Positions 2,797-31,242 of a stretch of DNA of 33,153 bases are shown here, piece after piece. The stretch comes from Candidatus Rokuibacteriota bacterium. Its GTDB lineage: Bacteria > Methylomirabilota > Methylomirabilia > Rokubacteriales > JACPHL01. Location: the NCBI GenBank assembly GCA_016188625.1, contig JACPHL010000115.1, positions 1 through 33,153 of the forward strand, in the 5' to 3' direction. Under the pieces are notes generated by a model that was not told where the DNA came from, ran no database searches, and was given only the letters and a program-made list of their open reading frames with translations. The position numbers and the translations under genes are program-made. Position 1 is the stretch's first letter; every line of letters begins with the position of its first letter.

Positions 2797-2887
2797 GGGG
2801 GGAGGCAGGCCCCGAAGCCGGTCGCCGAAGGGCGACCGGACGGCTTCGCCGGGGGCCGTCGGAAGGGGGGCGGAGCCCCCCTCCGAG
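2797..2887 (+). repeat. Dispersed structured repeat, copy A
   Basis: This GC-rich 91-nt element is shared with 9243-9346 and 16656-16759. It starts GGGGGGAGGCAGGCCCCGAA and ends CCCCCCTCCGAG. It folds into a hairpin CCGGTCGCC (2818-2826) / GGCGACCGG (2831-2839) with a GAAG loop, inside an outer GGCCCCGAAGCC / GGCTTCGCCGGGGGCC pairing. A second hairpin follows: GGGGGGC (2865-2871) / GCCCCCC (2875-2881). It ends 10 nt before the next start codon. Confidence 0.85.
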
Positions 2888-5998: not shown

Positions 5999-7419
5999 CC
6001 CTTCGCTTCGGGACCGACGGGTGGCGGGAGGTGATCGCCGAGGAGTTCACCCTGGCCAACGTGGCGGTGGTGGCCCAGGCGATCGCCGACGCCCTCCCCG
6101 GCGGCGCCCGGCCGGTGGTGGTCGGCTACGACACCCGCTTCGCCTCCCGGACGGCCGCGGAGCTGGCGGCCGAGGTGCTGGCGGCCAACGGCTTCGAGGT
6201 CCTCCTCGGGAGCGGCCCGGTCCCCACCCCGGCCGTCTCCTTCGCCGTCCGGGCCCACGGGGCGGTCGCCGGGGTGGTGGTCACGGCGAGCCACAACCCC
6301 TACTGGTTCAACGGGCTCAAGCTCAAGGCCGACTTCGGGGGCTCGGCCCCGCCCGAGCTGACGGCGAGGGTCGAGGCGGCGCTGGGGCGGACGCCGCCCC
6401 GGCGGCTCGGAGCGGCCAAGGCCGCGGCCCGCATCACGACGGTGGACCTCCTCCCCGCCTATCTCGAGGGCGTGGGGCGCCTCGTCGTCCGCGAGCCCCG
6501 CCCCGTCCGGCCGCTCACGGTGATCGCCGATCCCCTCTACGGGGCCGTGGACGGCCTGCTGGCGCGCCTGCTGCCGCCGGCCTGGGGGAGCGTCCGGGTG
6601 ATCCACGACCGGGCCGACCCCCTCTTCGGGGGCCTCCACCCCGAGCCGATCCCGCCGCACCTCGACCCCCTCGCGGCCGAGGTGCGCCGCGCCTCGGCCG
6701 ACCTCGGGCTGGCCACCGACTGCGACGGCGACCGGCTGGGCGTGATCGGGCCCGACGGGAGCTACGTCTCACCCCACCAGGTCCTGGCCCTCCTGCTCCT
6801 GCACCTCCACCGCCACCGGGGCTGGCGGGGGGAGGTGGTCAAGGGGTTCGCCGTCGGGGTCCAGACCGATCGGCTCTGCGAGCGTCTCGGCCTCGTCCTC
6901 CACGTGACCCCGATCGGGTTCAAGCACATCGCCCCCCTGATGCTCAGTCGTGATATCCTGATCGGTGGAGAGGAATCCGGCGGCGTCGGGTTCAAGGGGC
7001 ACCTCCCCGAGCGCGACGGTCTCCTCACGGCCCTCTTCCTCCTCGAGTGCCTGGTCATGGAGGGGAAGGGGCTCCCGGAGCTCGTCGCCGCCATGGAGGC
7101 CGAGGCCGGGCCCGCCGTCTACCAGCGCCGGGACTACCATCTCCCTCCCGAGGTCGGGCGGCGGCTCCTGGCGCGGCTGGACCAGGCCCCGCCGGCGCGG
7201 CTCGGGGGGGAGCGGGTCGTCCGGCGGGAGGATCTGGACGGCCGGAAGCTCTGGCTCGCCGACGGGGCGTGGGTCCTGATCCGGCCCTCGGGGACCGAGC
7301 CGGTCCTCAGGGTCTACATCGAGGCCCCCGAGGCGGGGGAGGTGGAGGCGCTCCACGCGGCCGCCGCCGACCTCGTCCGGTCGCTCGCGGGGGAGCGTGA
7401 GGGTCCGGCCTCGCTGTGA
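5995..7419 (+). CDS. Phosphohexomutase (phosphoglucomutase/phosphomannomutase)
   Basis: The 474-aa alpha-D-phosphohexomutase interconverts hexose 6-phosphate and hexose 1-phosphate. The catalytic phosphoserine loop is VVTASHNP (Ser99), the metal loop DCDGDR (Asp242, 244, 246), the sugar loop GGEESGG and the phosphate-binding loop RPSGTEP. Length is normal. It begins [11 protein letters not shown] at ATG 5995, four bases overlapping the pyrophosphorylase stop. Whether glucose or mannose is preferred cannot be stated; the pairing with a pyrophosphorylase suggests it supplies its hexose 1-phosphate substrate. The gene lepA follows immediately. Confidence 0.92.
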
Positions 7420-7421
7420 CC

Positions 7422-9212
7422 ATGAGCCTTGAACTGATCCGAACCTTCTCCATCATCGCCCACATCGACCACGGCAAATCGACCCTGGCCGATCGCCTGC
7501 TCGGGCTCTGCGGGGCCCTGGACCCGCGGAAGGCCGTGGACCAGGTCCTCGACTCCATGGACCTCGAGCGGGAGCGGGGGATCACCATCAAGGCCCACAC
7601 CGTCCGCCTCCTCTACCGGGCCCGCGACGGACGGGAGTACACCCTCAACCTCATCGACACCCCGGGCCACGTGGACTTCTCCTACGAGGTCTCCCGGAGC
7701 CTGGCGGCGTGCGAGGGGGCGATCCTGGTGGTGGACGCCGCGCAGGGGGTCGAGGCCCAAACCCTGGCCAACTACCACCTGGCCCTCGAGGCGGGCCTCG
7801 CCATCATCCCGGTCATCAACAAGATCGACCTCCCCCAGGCGGACGTGGAGGGGACGCGGGAGCAGCTCGCCGATATCCTCGGCCTCGACCCGGAGGAGGC
7901 GCTCCTCATCAGCGCCAAGGAGGGGACCGGGGTCCCCGAGGTCCTGGAGGCGATCGTCCGGCGGATCCCGCCGCCGCCCGGCGCCCCCCGGGGCCCCCTC
8001 AAGGCGCTGGTCTTCGACTCCTTCTACGACCCCTACCAGGGGGTCGTGGTCTACGTCCGCCTCCTGAACGGCCGGGTCCACCCCGGGATGAAGGTCCTCC
8101 TGATGTCCACGGCCAAGGTGTACGAGGTCCAGCAGGTGGGCGTCTTCACCCCGGCGCTCCGCCCGGTGGAGGAGCTGGCGGCCGGCCAGGTCGGCTACCT
8201 CACGGCGGGGATCAAGCGCGTGGCCGACTCCAAGGTCGGCGAGACCATCACCGACGCCCTCGTCCCCACGGCCGAGCCCTTCCCCGGCTACCGGGAGGCC
8301 AAGCCGATGGTCTTCTCCGGGCTCTACCCGGTGGAGGACACGGCCTACGGCGCCCTCCGGGACGCCCTGGAGAAGCTGCGCCTGAACGACTCGGCCTTCA
8401 CCTTCGAGCCCGAGAGCTCCAACGCCCTGGGCTTCGGCTTCCGCTGCGGGTTCCTGGGGATGCTCCACATGGAGATCATCCAGGAGCGCCTGGAGCGGGA
8501 GTTCGGCCTGACCCTGATCGCCACCGCCCCCAGCGTCCGCTACCGGGTGGTGGGCGCCGGGGGGGAGACCGTGGAGATCGACAACCCCTCGAAGCTCCCG
8601 CCCCCGGACAAGGTCGAGGTCATCGAGGAGCCCTACGTCCGCGGGGTCGTCTTCGTCCCCGTGGAGTTCATGGGGGCGGTCTACCGGCTGGCCCAGGAGA
8701 AGCGCGGCGAGCACCGCTCGGCGGACCACCTCGGCAAGCGGGTCCACCTCACCTTCGACTTCCCCCTGGCCGAGATCCTCGTGGACTTCTACGACCGGCT
8801 GAAGTCCCTCTCGCGGGGCTACGCCTCCTTCGACTACGACCTCCTGGAGTTCCGGCCCTCCCAGCTGGTCCGGCTCGACATCCTCCTCAACGGGGAGCCG
8901 GTGGACGCCCTCTCCCTGATCGTCCACCGCGACAAGGCCTACGAGCGGGGGAAGACCCTGGCGGAGCGGCTCAAGGGGGTGATCCCCCGCCAGCTCTTCG
9001 AGGTGGTCATCCAGGCGGCCATCGGGAGCCGGGTGATCGCCCGGGAGACCGTCCGGCCGCTCCGGAAGAACGTCACCGCCAAGTGCTACGGCGGCGACAT
9101 CACGCGGAAGCGCAAGCTCCTGGAGAAGCAGCGGGAGGGGAAGAAGCGGCTCAAGCAGCTGGGGCGCGTGGAGATCCCCCAGGAGGCCTTCCTCTCGGTC
9201 CTCAAGCCCTGA
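7422..9212 (+). CDS. lepA: Elongation factor 4 (LepA), back-translocating GTPase
   Basis: The product of about 596 aa has all GTPase boxes: AHIDHGKST, the [10 protein letters not shown] switch, [17 protein letters not shown] and SAKEG. It ends with the LepA-specific C-terminal domain ([20 protein letters not shown] and [19 protein letters not shown]). LepA is a translational GTPase of the ribosome that remodels elongating or initiating complexes. ATG 7422 gives [21 protein letters not shown]; an in-frame GTG at 7416 overlaps the mutase stop and is an alternative. The gene is followed by a 140-nt gap with a structured repeat before lepB; the lepA-lepB neighbourhood is common in bacteria. Confidence 0.97.
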
Positions 9213-9242: not shown

Positions 9243-9346
9243 GGGGGGAGGCAGGCCCCGAAGCCTTTCGCCAGCGGCGAAGCCGGCCTGGCGAAAGGTG
9301 GGCTTCGCCCAGGGCCGTCGGAAGGGGGGCAGAGCCCCCCTCCGAG
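9243..9346 (+). repeat. Dispersed structured repeat, copy B
   Basis: This 104-nt element is nearly identical to copy C (16656-16759) and homologous at both ends to copy A. The inner stem CCTTTCGCC (9264-9272) / GGCGAAAGG (9290-9298) encloses a 17-nt loop; the terminal hairpin is GGGGGGC / GCCCCCC. It ends 6 nt before the lepB ATG and has the same orientation relative to the downstream gene as the other copies. Confidence 0.85.
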
Positions 9347-9352
9347 TTAGAT

Positions 9353-10015
9353 ATGGATCCCGAGGTCAAGCCCGACCCTAAACCGGACGCCGACCCGGAC
9401 GCGACGCCCGCGCCCCGGGCCGCGGTGCGGCGGAAGTCCGTCCTCCGCGAGTACCTGGAGGCGATCCTCATCGCCGTCCTCCTGGCCCTCCTCATCCGCA
9501 CCTTCGTCGTCCAGGCCTTCAAGATCCCCTCCGGCTCCATGATCCCGAGCCTCCAGGTGGGGGACCACATCCTGGTCAACAAGTTCATCTACCGCTTCCG
9601 GGACCCCGGGCGCGGGGACGTCATCGTCTTCAAGTACCCGGTGGACGAATCCCGCGATTTCATCAAGCGGGTGATCGCGGTGGGTGGGGAGGACCTCTAC
9701 ATCAAAGGGCAGGAGGTCTACATCAACTGCCAGCCCCCCGAGACCGGCTGCCGCCCGCTGGAGGAGCCCTGGGCCTACTACGACGAGCGGCCGGTGGCCT
9801 CGGAGACCTTCGGCCCGGTCCACGTCCCCCCCGATGCCTACTTCGTCATGGGGGACAACCGGAACAACAGCCAGGACAGCCGCTTCTGGGGGTTCGTCCG
9901 GCGCGAGAAGGTGAAGGGGAAGGCCTTCATCATCTACTGGTCGTGGGATGGGGAGACGGGCAGTCCGCTCTGGGAGAAGGTCCGGTGGTCGCGGCTGGGG
10001 CGGCTGATCCCCTGA
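9353..10015 (+). CDS. lepB: Signal peptidase I
   Basis: The 220-aa membrane serine protease removes signal peptides from Sec- and Tat-exported proteins. A charged, proline- and aspartate-rich N-terminus (residues 1-30) precedes a single membrane segment (about 34-55). Then come box B with the nucleophile Ser62 in SGSMIPSL, box D with the general-base Lys105 in FIKRVIAVGG, and box E MGDNRNNSQDSR (about 166-177). This is the complete one-membrane-span form. ATG 9353 follows the repeat with no clear Shine-Dalgarno. The gene hemW starts inside its 3' end. Confidence 0.95.
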   Translation: MDPEVKPDPKPDADPDATPAPRAAVRRKSVLREYLEAILIAVLLALLIRTFVVQAFKIPSGSMIPSLQVGDHILVNKFIYRFRDPGRGDVIVFKYPVDESRDFIKRVIAVGGEDLYIKGQEVYINCQPPETGCRPLEEPWAYYDERPVASETFGPVHVPPDAYFVMGDNRNNSQDSRFWGFVRREKVKGKAFIIYWSWDGETGSPLWEKVRWSRLGRLIP

Positions 10016-14114: not shown

Positions 14115-14999
14115 GTGAGCGCGCCGACGTTCTGGGCGCTCCGCGTGAGCCTCGCGCCCGGGACCGTCGAGGGCGTGACCAACTTCCTCTGGGAGGCCGG
14201 GGCGAGCGGGGTCATCGAGGAGGCCCCGGGCCCGCTGGCCACGCTGGAGGCCCACTTCCCCCCGGGGACCGATCCCGCCCTGACCGAGACCCGGCTGCTC
14301 GCCTATCTCGACGCCCTCCGGGCCCTGGGGCTCCCCGTGGGGCCGGGCGCCGTCCATGCCCGGCTCGTCCCCGACGAGGCGTGGGCCGAGGCGTGGCGGG
14401 CCCACTTCGTCCCCCGCCGGGTGGGGGAGCGACTCTGGGTCTGCCCGCCTTGGGACCGCCCGCCCGCCGGCCCCGGGGAGGTCGTGGTCGAGATCGACCC
14501 CGGCCGGGCCTTCGGGACCGGCGCCCACGCCACGACCCTCGGGTGCCTCGAGCTCGCCGCCTCGCTCCTCGCCACCACCGCCGGCCCGGCGGTCCTCGAC
14601 GTCGGCACCGGGAGCGGGATCCTCGCCGTCGCCTGCGCCAAGCTCGGCGCGGCCTCCGTGCTGGCGATCGACCTGGATCCCGACGCCGTGCGCGCGGCCG
14701 AGGCCAACGCCCTCCGGAACGGCGTGGCCCGCCAGGTGACGGTCGCCCTCGCCACGCCGGAGGAGCTGGACGGGGTGCGGGTCCCGCTCATCCTGGCCAA
14801 CCTCCTGGCCCCCGCCATCGAGCGGCTGGCCCCCCAGTTCGCCCGTCTCGCCGGGCGCCCGGGCTGGCTCATCGCCGGGGGGGTGTTGACCACGGAGGTG
14901 GGCCCGGTCGAGACCGCCCTGGGGCGCGTCGGCTTTCGCCCCTGCCGGCGGCTCGACCGGGAGGGGTGGGCGACCCTGCTCCTCGCGCGGGACGGGTAG
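14115..14999 (+). CDS. prmA: Ribosomal protein L11 methyltransferase
   Basis: The 294-aa SAM-dependent methyltransferase trimethylates lysines of ribosomal protein L11. The N-terminal substrate domain (1-100) leads to the conserved FGTGAHATT, motif I DVGTGSGILAVACAKLGA, the acidic IDLDPDAVRAAEANA and the catalytic-site ANLLAPAI. Length is normal. GTG 14115 was chosen because it gives the standard WALRVSL start. It lies in the hrcA-grpE-dnaJ-prmA arrangement that is frequent in several phyla. Its stop codon is the left edge of a tandem duplication that includes the archease start. Confidence 0.92.
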   Translation: MSAPTFWALRVSLAPGTVEGVTNFLWEAGASGVIEEAPGPLATLEAHFPPGTDPALTETRLLAYLDALRALGLPVGPGAVHARLVPDEAWAEAWRAHFVPRRVGERLWVCPPWDRPPAGPGEVVVEIDPGRAFGTGAHATTLGCLELAASLLATTAGPAVLDVGTGSGILAVACAKLGAASVLAIDLDPDAVRAAEANALRNGVARQVTVALATPEELDGVRVPLILANLLAPAIERLAPQFARLAGRPGWLIAGGVLTTEVGPVETALGRVGFRPCRRLDREGWATLLLARDG

Positions 15000-15145
15000 G
15001 GGCCGTGGCCCAGGCGGATCCGGGGAGCGCCGGCTTCGAGTACTTCGAGGTCACGGCGGACGTCCCTCCGAGGGATCTAGGGGCCGTGGCCCAGGCGGAT
15101 CCGGGGAGCGTCGGCTTCGAGTACTTCGAGGTCACGGCGGACGTC
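14997..15145 (+). repeat. 68-bp tandem duplication across the prmA stop / archease start
   Basis: Positions 14997-15064 and 15078-15145 are identical except for one base (GCC versus GTC), separated by a 13-nt filler. The period is 81 nt, so the archease frame stays open. Each copy begins TAGGGGCCGTGGCCCAGGCG and contains a GTG start candidate (15005 and 15086). Confidence 0.95.
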
Positions 15146-15732: not shown

Positions 15733-16647
15733 ATGGAGCTTCAATCGACGATTCGCAAGCAGGTCGGGTGCCAGGGGATCGGCCTTCACACCGGTGAGCC
15801 GGTCCACCTGACCCTTCAGCCGGCCCCGCCCGACAGCGGCGTCCTCTTCCGCCTCCTCCCCCCCGGGGTGGACATCCTGGTGGGCCCTGATGCGCTTCTG
15901 AACGGCCATTACGCCACGACCCTGGGGTGGGACGGGGTCCAGGTCCAGACCGTCGAGCACCTCCTGGCCGCGGTCGCGGCGCTCGGCATCGACAACCTGC
16001 GCGTGGAGGTCGAAGGGGTCGAGCTCCCGGCGATGGACGGGAGCGCCAAGCCGTACGTGGACCTCCTCTACGCGGCGGGGCGGGAGGGGCAGGCCGCTCC
16101 CCGCCGTCCCCTCTACGTGAAGGAGGAGATCCGCGTCGGGGACGACGCGCGCTGGATCCAGATCTCGCCGGCCACCGAGACCCGGATCAGCTACACCCTG
16201 GACCTGGACCACCCCGTGGTGGGGGTCCAGATCGCTTCGTTCGCCCCCACCGAGCGGGTCTTCGTGGAGGAGCTGGCCTCCGCCCGGACGTACGGGTTCC
16301 TCAAGGACGTCGAGCTGCTCCGCCAGCAGGGGCTGGCCCGGGGCGGGTCGCTGGAGAACGCCGTGGTGGTCGGCCAGGAGCGGGTCCTGAACGGCTCGCT
16401 CCGCTTCCGCGACGAGTTCGTCCGCCACAAGATCCTCGACGTGGTCGGGGACCTGGCCCTCCTGGGGCGGCCGGTGGTCGGGCATGTGGTGGCGCGCAAC
16501 GCCGGCCACGCCCTGAACCACCAGCTGGTCCGTGAGGTCCACCGGCGGGCCGCGGGGTGGGAGCGTGGCGTGGTCGCCGCCCTCCACCACCCGGTCGGCC
16601 GCTCCGAGGGCGAGCCGAGACTCCACCCCGGCCTGGCCGCCGTCTAG
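15733..16647 (+). CDS. lpxC: UDP-3-O-acyl-N-acetylglucosamine deacetylase
   Basis: The 304-aa zinc enzyme carries out the first committed step of lipid A synthesis. It has the start QSTIRKQVGCQGIGLHTG, zinc ligand motif VEHLLAAVAALGIDN, the catalytic ELPAMDGSAKPYVDLL, TYGFLKDVELLRQQGLARGGSLENAVV, and the second zinc site RHKILDVVGDLALLGRPV, ending in the NAGHALNHQLV stretch. Its presence means the organism makes a lipid A-type outer membrane. It is separated from the upstream operon by an AT-rich gap and followed within 9 nt by a structured repeat. Confidence 0.97.
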   Translation: MELQSTIRKQVGCQGIGLHTGEPVHLTLQPAPPDSGVLFRLLPPGVDILVGPDALLNGHYATTLGWDGVQVQTVEHLLAAVAALGIDNLRVEVEGVELPAMDGSAKPYVDLLYAAGREGQAAPRRPLYVKEEIRVGDDARWIQISPATETRISYTLDLDHPVVGVQIASFAPTERVFVEELASARTYGFLKDVELLRQQGLARGGSLENAVVVGQERVLNGSLRFRDEFVRHKILDVVGDLALLGRPVVGHVVARNAGHALNHQLVREVHRRAAGWERGVVAALHHPVGRSEGEPRLHPGLAAV

Positions 16648-16655
16648 CCGCCTCT

Positions 16656-16759
16656 TGGGGGAGGCAGGCCCCGAAGCCTTTCGCCAGCGGCGAAGCCGGA
16701 CTGGCGAAAGGTGGGCTTCGCCCAGGGCCGTCGGAAGGGGGGCGGAGCCCCCCTCCGAG
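16656..16759 (+). repeat. Dispersed structured repeat, copy C
   Basis: This 104-nt element is almost identical to 9243-9346. The inner stem is CCTTTCGCC (16677-16685) / GGCGAAAGG (16703-16711), and the terminal hairpin GGGGGGC / GCCCCCC precedes CTCCGAG. It begins 9 nt after the lpxC stop and ends about 50 nt before the DUF4390 gene; a pyrimidine-rich tract follows. Confidence 0.85.
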
Positions 16760-16811: not shown

Positions 16812-17405
16812 ATGTGTCGGCGCCGGTCGGACGCGTCCCTCTGGGTCGCCCTGGTTCTCGGGGTCCTGCTCCTCCTCGCCCCGGTGGGCGAGGCCGCGGA
16901 CCTCAAGATCTCGAACCTCGTGGTGACCAACTCGGACAAGAGCCTGATGGTCCAGGCCGTCCTCCTCGGCGCCCTCCCCGAGGGCCTGGTGGAGGGGCTC
17001 GAGACGGGGATCCCGGCGGTGGTCCGCTTCCAGGTGGAGCTCTGGCAGTACAACACCTTCTGGGTGGACCGACGGATCGCGGCCAAGGTCGTCGAGCGGC
17101 AGGTGCACTACGACATCCTCACCAAGGAGTACCGGGTGACGGCAGTGCAGGGGGAGAGCCGGGAGCCGTACGTGACGCGCGACCTCTGGGAGGCCAAGCG
17201 GGTGATCTCGGAGCTCCGGGCCCTGCACCTGGCCCCCATCGACCTCCTCAAGCTCGAGAACCTCTACTACGTCCGGCTCCGGGCCGAGATCCGACCGGCG
17301 ACCCCCGAGCCGTCCCTCACCAAGCTTCTCCCCCCCTTCCTCTCCTCGGGGGTGGAGACGTCCTGGGAGAAGTCCCCCCTCCTGACCATGAGCCGGCAGC
17401 GCTGA
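16812..17405 (+). CDS. DUF4390 family exported protein
   Basis: The 197-aa protein has an N-terminal signal peptide (positive RRR, then a leucine-rich core, cleavage likely after GEA at about residue 28). The mature part begins [22 protein letters not shown] and has [18 protein letters not shown] and the [10 protein letters not shown] strand, a pattern I associate with DUF4390. In other genomes this family is found directly upstream of an NtrY-like kinase, as here (16 nt spacing). That suggests a periplasmic role linked to the kinase, but the function is not known. ATG 16812 is the only start that preserves the signal peptide. Confidence 0.75.
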
Positions 17406-30944: not shown

Positions 30945-30946
30945 GG

Positions 30947-31096
30947 GGGATTATTCGTGAACGGCTTCCCGCGAGGCGGACGGGTCCTGTCACGCCGGGC
31001 AGCCCCACTCGGCTCGCCACCCCCGCCCGGTGTTGGGGCGCCCCGCCCGGCGCGCCACCCGTCCGCCGTCCGCTGGCGGCGTTCACGAATAATCCC
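30947..31096 (+). mobile_element. MITE-like element with terminal inverted repeats
   Basis: Perfect 17-nt terminal inverted repeats, GGGATTATTCGTGAACG (30947-30963) and its complement (31080-31096), bound 150 nt without coding capacity. Beyond them GGCGGACGGG on the left matches the complement of CCCGTCCGCC on the right, so the arms extend imperfectly to about 38 nt. I see no clear target-site duplication and no transposase. The remaining stretch to hpt (31097-31248) holds only copy D of the structured repeat. Confidence 0.72.
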
Positions 31097-31176
31097 GGCT
31101 GGGATTCTGGCCGGATGACACCGAGGTGGCTCCGTGCTCTTGACCCTCGGCTCGCGGATGGACTGTTCCGTTTCGA

Positions 31177-31242
31177 GCGCCGGCTTCGCCGGCGCAACCT
31201 TGGGGGGAGGTTCGGAAGGGGGGCGTAAGCCCCCCTCCGAGG
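31177..31242 (+). repeat. Dispersed structured repeat, shortened variant D
   Basis: A perfect hairpin GCGCCGGC-TTC-GCCGGCGC (31177-31195) is followed by TTGGGGGGAGG (31201-31211). Then comes the terminal part shared with copies A-C, TTCGGAAGGGGGGCG, continuing to CCCCCCTCCGAG (31242). The central section of the other copies is missing. It ends 6 nt before hpt, and its GGAG (31241-31244) may serve as the ribosome binding site. Confidence 0.7.

Follow-up and report, generated by a model that had tools for sequence, protein, structure and literature searches.

Dispersed hairpin repeats with paired stems in Rokubacteria, a family probably spread by insertion

The window analysed here is a stretch of 33,153 nt, contig 240 of a draft genome of an uncultured bacterium, Candidatus Rokuibacteriota (order Rokubacteria; 2.60 Mb in 344 contigs, 84% complete). 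Three dispersed copies of a structured repeat (A, B and C) were found in it where an earlier note had placed them, together with a fourth copy and a 68-bp duplication around a repeat remnant, both of which that note had overlooked. The features are as follows, with flanking genes named from Pfam matches:

2797-2887, + strand: copy A, branched subtype with a short arm, ending CTCCGAG
2808-2813/2852-2857: outer stem of copy A
2818-2826/2831-2839: helix 1 of copy A
2841-2844/2848-2851: helix 2 of copy A
2865-2871/2875-2881: 3' hairpin of copy A
7416-9212: lepA, flanking copy B
9244-9346, + strand: copy B, branched subtype with a long arm (helix 1 at 9264-9274/9288-9298)
9353-10015: signal peptidase gene, flanking copy B
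14997-15064, + strand: left copy of the 68-bp duplication, starting at the TAG stop of prmA
15065-15077, + strand: CCTCCGAGGGATC, made up of the final 8 repeat nucleotides and 5 nt more
15078-15145, + strand: right copy of the 68-bp duplication, containing the start of the archease gene
15733-16647: lpxC, flanking copy C
16657-16759, + strand: copy C, branched subtype with a long arm (helix 1 at 16677-16687/16701-16711)
16812-17405: DUF4390 gene, flanking copy C
31172-31241, + strand: fourth copy, two-hairpin subtype, ending CTCCGAG
31177-31184/31188-31195: left hairpin of the fourth copy
31218-31224/31229-31235: 3' hairpin of the fourth copy
31249: ATG of a phosphoribosyltransferase gene, 7 nt beyond the fourth copy

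Three matches to the common ends of A, B and C were reached in none of 100 shuffles. B and C share 98% identity over 105 nt; A has about 80% identity to both, with an inner arm 13 nt shorter. The change of two G-C pairs into T-A pairs described in the earlier note is present between the stem of A (CCGGTCGCC/GGCGACCGG) and that of B and C (CCTTTCGCCAG/CTGGCGAAAGG), but it does not stand alone: B and C also have 13 nt more in the terminal arm, two additional base pairs in helix 1 and a different second small helix (TGGGC/GCCCA, against ACGGC/GCCGG in A). Because arm length, extra pairs and second helix differ too, A represents one subfamily and B/C another, and they are not near-identical copies. 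Compared with 200 dinucleotide shuffles, each of the three folds better (z from -3.2 to -4.0). At minimum energy, A and B do not adopt the branched model: their two ends pair with each other (GGGGGGAGGC with GCCCCCCTCC). For C, and in the centroid of B, the hairpins are separate; thus, more than one fold is possible. The fourth copy escaped the ungapped search pattern owing to its 4-nt loop. Directly upstream of it, at 30946-31097, two inverted arms of about 17 nt (GGGATTATTCGTGAACG) lie 116 nt apart; this inverted repeat is unlike the family.

The 3' hairpin GGGGGGCNNNGCCCCCCTCCGAG has 165 matches in the host genome at up to 3 mismatches, versus 4 for a reversed-pattern control. Copies were typed in about 0.79 Mb of this genome, on contigs picked for holding the hairpin; the 112 typed copies comprise 55 of the two-hairpin subtype, 20 branched and 12 with a left module of about 210 nt, the rest being mixed. 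The two-hairpin core, mostly 67-75 nt long, reads in order TYCGAG, the hairpin GCGCSGGC-TTN-GCCSGCGC, a GGGGGGAGG linker, TCGGAA, the hairpin GGGGGGC-NNN-GCCCCCC and TCCGAG. In the branched subtype, the helix-1 arm and the small helix 2 lie within a GGCCCC/GGGGCC stem, followed by the same 3' hairpin. To the left of TYCGAG, conservation in the CSP1-6 genus is limited to a weak 8-nt motif, and in the host genome about 40 nt further are conserved. The 3' end of the repeat (hairpin plus CTCCGAG) is fixed, and the 5' part is modular and ragged. A longer repeat, about 210 nt in length, bounded by GGGGAGGCGTCGG and CGACGCCTCCC and frequently fused to the family's 3' hairpin, occurs at loci L103, L138, L140, L151 and L166 and is probably a separate repeat family.

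At one mismatch or fewer, 48 of 60 genomes within the order contain the 3' hairpin and none of 35 genomes from elsewhere in the class does, and among the matches listed for an exact 29-nt hairpin query there were only records labelled Candidatus Rokubacteria or Rokuibacteriota. As far as sampled, the family is confined to the Rokubacteria order. Copy number in the order ranges from 0 to 103 per genome, differs within a single genus (77, 9, 1, 0 and 0 copies) and is zero in several complete relatives; the high-copy genomes are G000, G025, G026, G037 (JACPSW01), G039, G033 (CSP1-6 LDXP01) and G019 (JACPCF01). The branched subtype, the kind first seen in the window, has 20 matches in the host and fewer in 5 of 39 relatives. 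Searches for carriage of the repeat by plasmids and phages gave no match, and viral contigs gave no exact match. Among the papers searched, none on these repeats was found, and Rfam gave no match at the gathering score. In a relaxed search, copy B reached 26 bits (E 0.00017-0.00027) with the DUF3800-XI RNA (RF02975), versus a gathering score of 37.8 bits; this candidate was rejected, as the model helix pairs other bases and the other copies do not reach E 0.05. A DUF3800 gene was not found in the host and is present in 7 of 40 genomes.

In the genome-wide set of copies the stem positions co-vary; the independent variation that the earlier note named as refuting its reading was not seen. Helix 1 occurs in at least five different pairings (CCTTTCGCCAG, CCGGTCGCC, CCGGTCGCT, CCCGTCGGC and CGTTCGCC, each with its complement), the CCCCGAGC types forming only a weaker short stem, and helix 2 occurs as TGGGC/GCCCA, CCGGC/GCCGG, TCGGC/GCCGA and GCGGC/GCCGC. 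Of 125 two-hairpin copies, 60 have G-C, 53 C-G and 8 a mismatch at the fourth left pair; the 57 double changes there compare with a shuffle maximum of 33 (a descriptive figure, as the shuffles ignore relatedness), and the same flip within the host genome alone gives 24 versus 17. Three copies have T-A as the first right pair. The earlier view that structure is maintained is borne out to the extent that the stems co-vary, but paired changes alone are no proof of action at the RNA level. Hairpin-templated repair can likewise keep palindromes perfect. The G.T mismatches in the two stems are in modest excess over A.C (21 versus 11), a bias not clear enough to indicate that the repeat functions as RNA. 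Among five orthologous copies found in more than one genome, 12 substitutions fall in 354 core positions, versus 311 in 2870 flank positions (p = 1.3e-6); in alignments read by eye, 11 of the 12 fall in loops or linkers and the twelfth gives a G.T pair. These shared sites were located via the 3' hairpin, whose conservation is thus partly ascertained; the left hairpin was not used for finding them. Such slow evolution could reflect a host function acquired after insertion.

A home-made coding model supplied the gene calls, and single starts may be wrong. Of the genes beyond the 3' end of the repeat, 43 are co-directional with it and 54 opposed (13 versus 6 for the branched subtype), so the fixed orientation to the downstream gene reported earlier does not hold genome-wide; the three window copies share one orientation because the window has nearly all its genes on a single strand. 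Roughly half of the copies are antisense to the adjoining gene, just past its stop codon, and for this reason the suggestion of a 5' leader fails. For opposed genes, the stop codon lies exactly 4 nt from the repeat end in 27 of 53, and it is TAA or TAG in 42 of 51, versus 286 of 720 over all called genes. Convergent regions are enriched among occupied intergenic regions (16 of 78, versus 29 of 613 unoccupied; p = 7e-6), and divergent regions show a non-significant deficit (3 of 78 versus 52 of 613). In a genome of 72% GC, TA-rich words concentrate at stop and start codons; a preference for TA-rich targets, combined with avoidance of coding sequence, could therefore account for the placement without a role in termination. 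At L094, L153 and L001, just after CTCCGAG, TATAAT words lie about 6-10 nt before the start codon adjoining the repeat end and resemble the -10 box of leaderless promoters. At L208 (position 707), a copy inserted at the 3' end of a gene has apparently eliminated its stop codon, the frame continuing into the repeat; the relative L226 retains the stop.

Comparison of related genomes (about 74-98% flank identity) yielded 34 pairings of orthologs, several being redundant; in about one third both partners hold the hairpin, and in the others one partner is empty. In the empty-site alignments, the repeat sits at gene junctions. Seven copies are clearly flanked by direct duplications (49, 50, 30, 38, 30, 27 and 17 bp), versus 0.1 expected at that score; two of the seven are orthologous, leaving six independent events. 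The right copy of the duplication begins 2-7 nt after CTCCGAG and the left copy ends 13-24 nt before TYCGAG, the filler on this left side being unconserved. A scan of 440 CCTCCGAG words gave 12 duplications, including the 68-bp one of the window and about 3 that are doubtful or nested, versus 0-2 at ten control words, the largest control match being the 68-bp locus of the window on the opposite strand. About 90% of copies have no recognisable duplication. At the prmA-archease junction of the window, the two 68-bp copies are identical at 67 of 68 positions, and the repeat is represented between them by its last 8 nt alone. This CCTCCGAGGGATC locus is probably a 5'-truncated insertion or a remnant; the former explains this one case most simply, and internal deletion is the alternative. 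Two further candidates were set aside: the apparent target duplication at L289, judged by eye to be probably the natural likeness of two tRNA genes, and a duplication of 44 bp at L139 that abuts the motif directly and is probably an unrelated one in coding sequence. The insertion signature, a fixed 3' end, a ragged 5' end and long variable duplications, is the unusual part of this family and is seen in fewer than 10 clear cases. To our knowledge, long variable duplications are not usually left by bacterial repeats.

The size of the family, its paired stems, its presence or absence between relatives and the long duplications in a minority of copies are supported directly. We infer that it spread by insertion of the repeat itself with the hairpin as substrate, and we consider it likely (a probability of roughly 0.7) that it is a non-autonomous, intergenic, REP/MITE-like family of mobile hairpins that serve as the substrate of an insertion machinery. 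The repeat would insert a few nucleotides from A+T-rich sites, mostly TAA or TAG stop codons and start codons in tight operons, and some insertions would duplicate 17-68 bp of target, thereby leaving the genes on both sides intact. The hairpins would be recognised by the copying machinery as single-stranded DNA or RNA, and may be kept paired because they are this substrate.

REP-like repeats are common in bacteria, and those with a known mover depend on a RAYT. The REP-like nature proposed in the earlier note stands insofar as the repeats are dispersed, structured and similar to REPs, but no RAYT was found in the host genome with two models: Y1_Tnp (PF01797) and REP_Tyr_transpos (NF047646) have no match in the 84%-complete draft, nor in the high-copy genomes G025, G026, G039 and G033. 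A classical REP/REPIN moved by a RAYT (a Y1 HUH tyrosine transposase) absent from the draft or too divergent to be recognised is accordingly improbable, even though size, GC-rich palindrome, intergenic placement and copy number suit REPs, Y1 proteins occur in 8 of 40 relatives and the CTCGGAG-hairpin of the reverse strand loosely resembles some Pseudomonas REPs (PMC2817692). Among the 40 genomes, PF01797 (in 8) and REP_Tyr_transpos (in 6) do not track copy number, and four Y1 loci of relatives have no family hairpin nearby. As far as is known, long target duplications, seen here in some copies, are not typical of REPs, and the fixed 3' end with a ragged 5' end is a further difference. Like the REP/BIME/REPIN elements associated with RAYTs, the family consists of short GC-rich imperfect palindromes in intergenic regions, with more than 100 copies per genome and composite arrangements, but the GT(A/G)G head that defines REPs at the 5' foot of the palindrome (PMC2817692) is missing, the two strands having TCGGAA and CTCGGAG at the foot. 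The repeat is thus neither a 5' leader nor, by the tests run, a classical REP. Bacterial MITEs are likewise short, non-coding, non-autonomous, intergenic and present or absent between relatives; here, however, no terminal inverted repeats were seen, the ends TYCGAG and CTCCGAG being in direct orientation, and the duplications are variable (17-68 bp) and lacking from most copies, whereas those of MITEs are short and constant. The family acts like REPs and MITEs but fails tested defining features of both. In about one third of the host genome and the loci examined, neither a gene between the modules of the repeat (an autonomous copy) nor a parent transposon with the same ends was found. A SINE-like element, in which a structured RNA or single-stranded DNA with a hairpin 3' end is copied into a nicked target by a polymerase or nuclease unlike the tested transposases and reverse transcriptases, is unlikely, though slightly less so than the RAYT route. 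Such copying would leave the 3' end constant, shorten 5' ends and create target duplications that are long and variable, and the family shares with SINE-like or target-primed retroelements, in a few cases, its fixed 3' stem-loop end, its variable 5' end, its duplications and one apparent 5'-truncated copy. Unlike in those elements, the RNA intermediate is hypothetical here, and the reverse transcriptase domain RVT_1 was not found in the host, in three CSP1-6-genus genomes (G019, G033 and G037) or in G025; it is present in 16 of 40 genomes and does not track copy number.

Enrichment between convergent genes and near stop codons, strong RNA folds and shared-site substitutions mostly in loops and linkers would suit a functional RNA element (a terminator, a stabiliser of mRNA ends or a leader) with structure selected at the RNA level. 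This explanation is as improbable as the RAYT one: copies lie in both orientations beside genes, in the copies read neither strand has a T-run after the hairpin, the bias of G.T over A.C is not clear, and the repeat is present or absent at the same gene pair between relatives and lacking from several complete ones. Capture during repair, in which hairpin-copied repeat pieces would be joined into staggered breaks by Ku-type end joining without a dedicated transposase, is also unlikely, marginally more so than SINE-like copying. End joining would give both filler and long duplications, in keeping with the unconserved 13-24 nt at the left junction, and Ku is encoded by the host and by 32 of 40 genomes, with 0-15 copies in Ku-less genomes and up to 103 in Ku-bearing ones (one-sided p = 0.035, phylogeny not corrected). 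From random capture, however, neither a 3' end that is fixed and near-exact nor a high copy number would be expected, and many Ku-bearing genomes have few or no copies; the Ku association is a lead for a repair-assisted route, no more. Finally, the paired changes could be mutational, with hairpin-templated strand switching perfecting imperfect palindromes in passive repeats. We regard this as doubtful but more plausible than the preceding alternatives, given the G-C/C-G flip almost without intermediates and stems that are almost perfect palindromes. It would account for perfect stems but not for spread, fixed ends or duplications, and several subfamilies keep the branched layout despite differing stem sequences. 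Strand switching is compatible with the mobile hairpin family favoured here, as a contributing process.

The abundance of the repeat differs between related genomes, yet neither RAYT nor reverse transcriptase explains its distribution. The mover, once found, would reveal a further route by which bacterial genomes acquire dispersed repeats, and the occupied and empty gene pairs are natural experiments on how a hairpin between operon genes affects expression.
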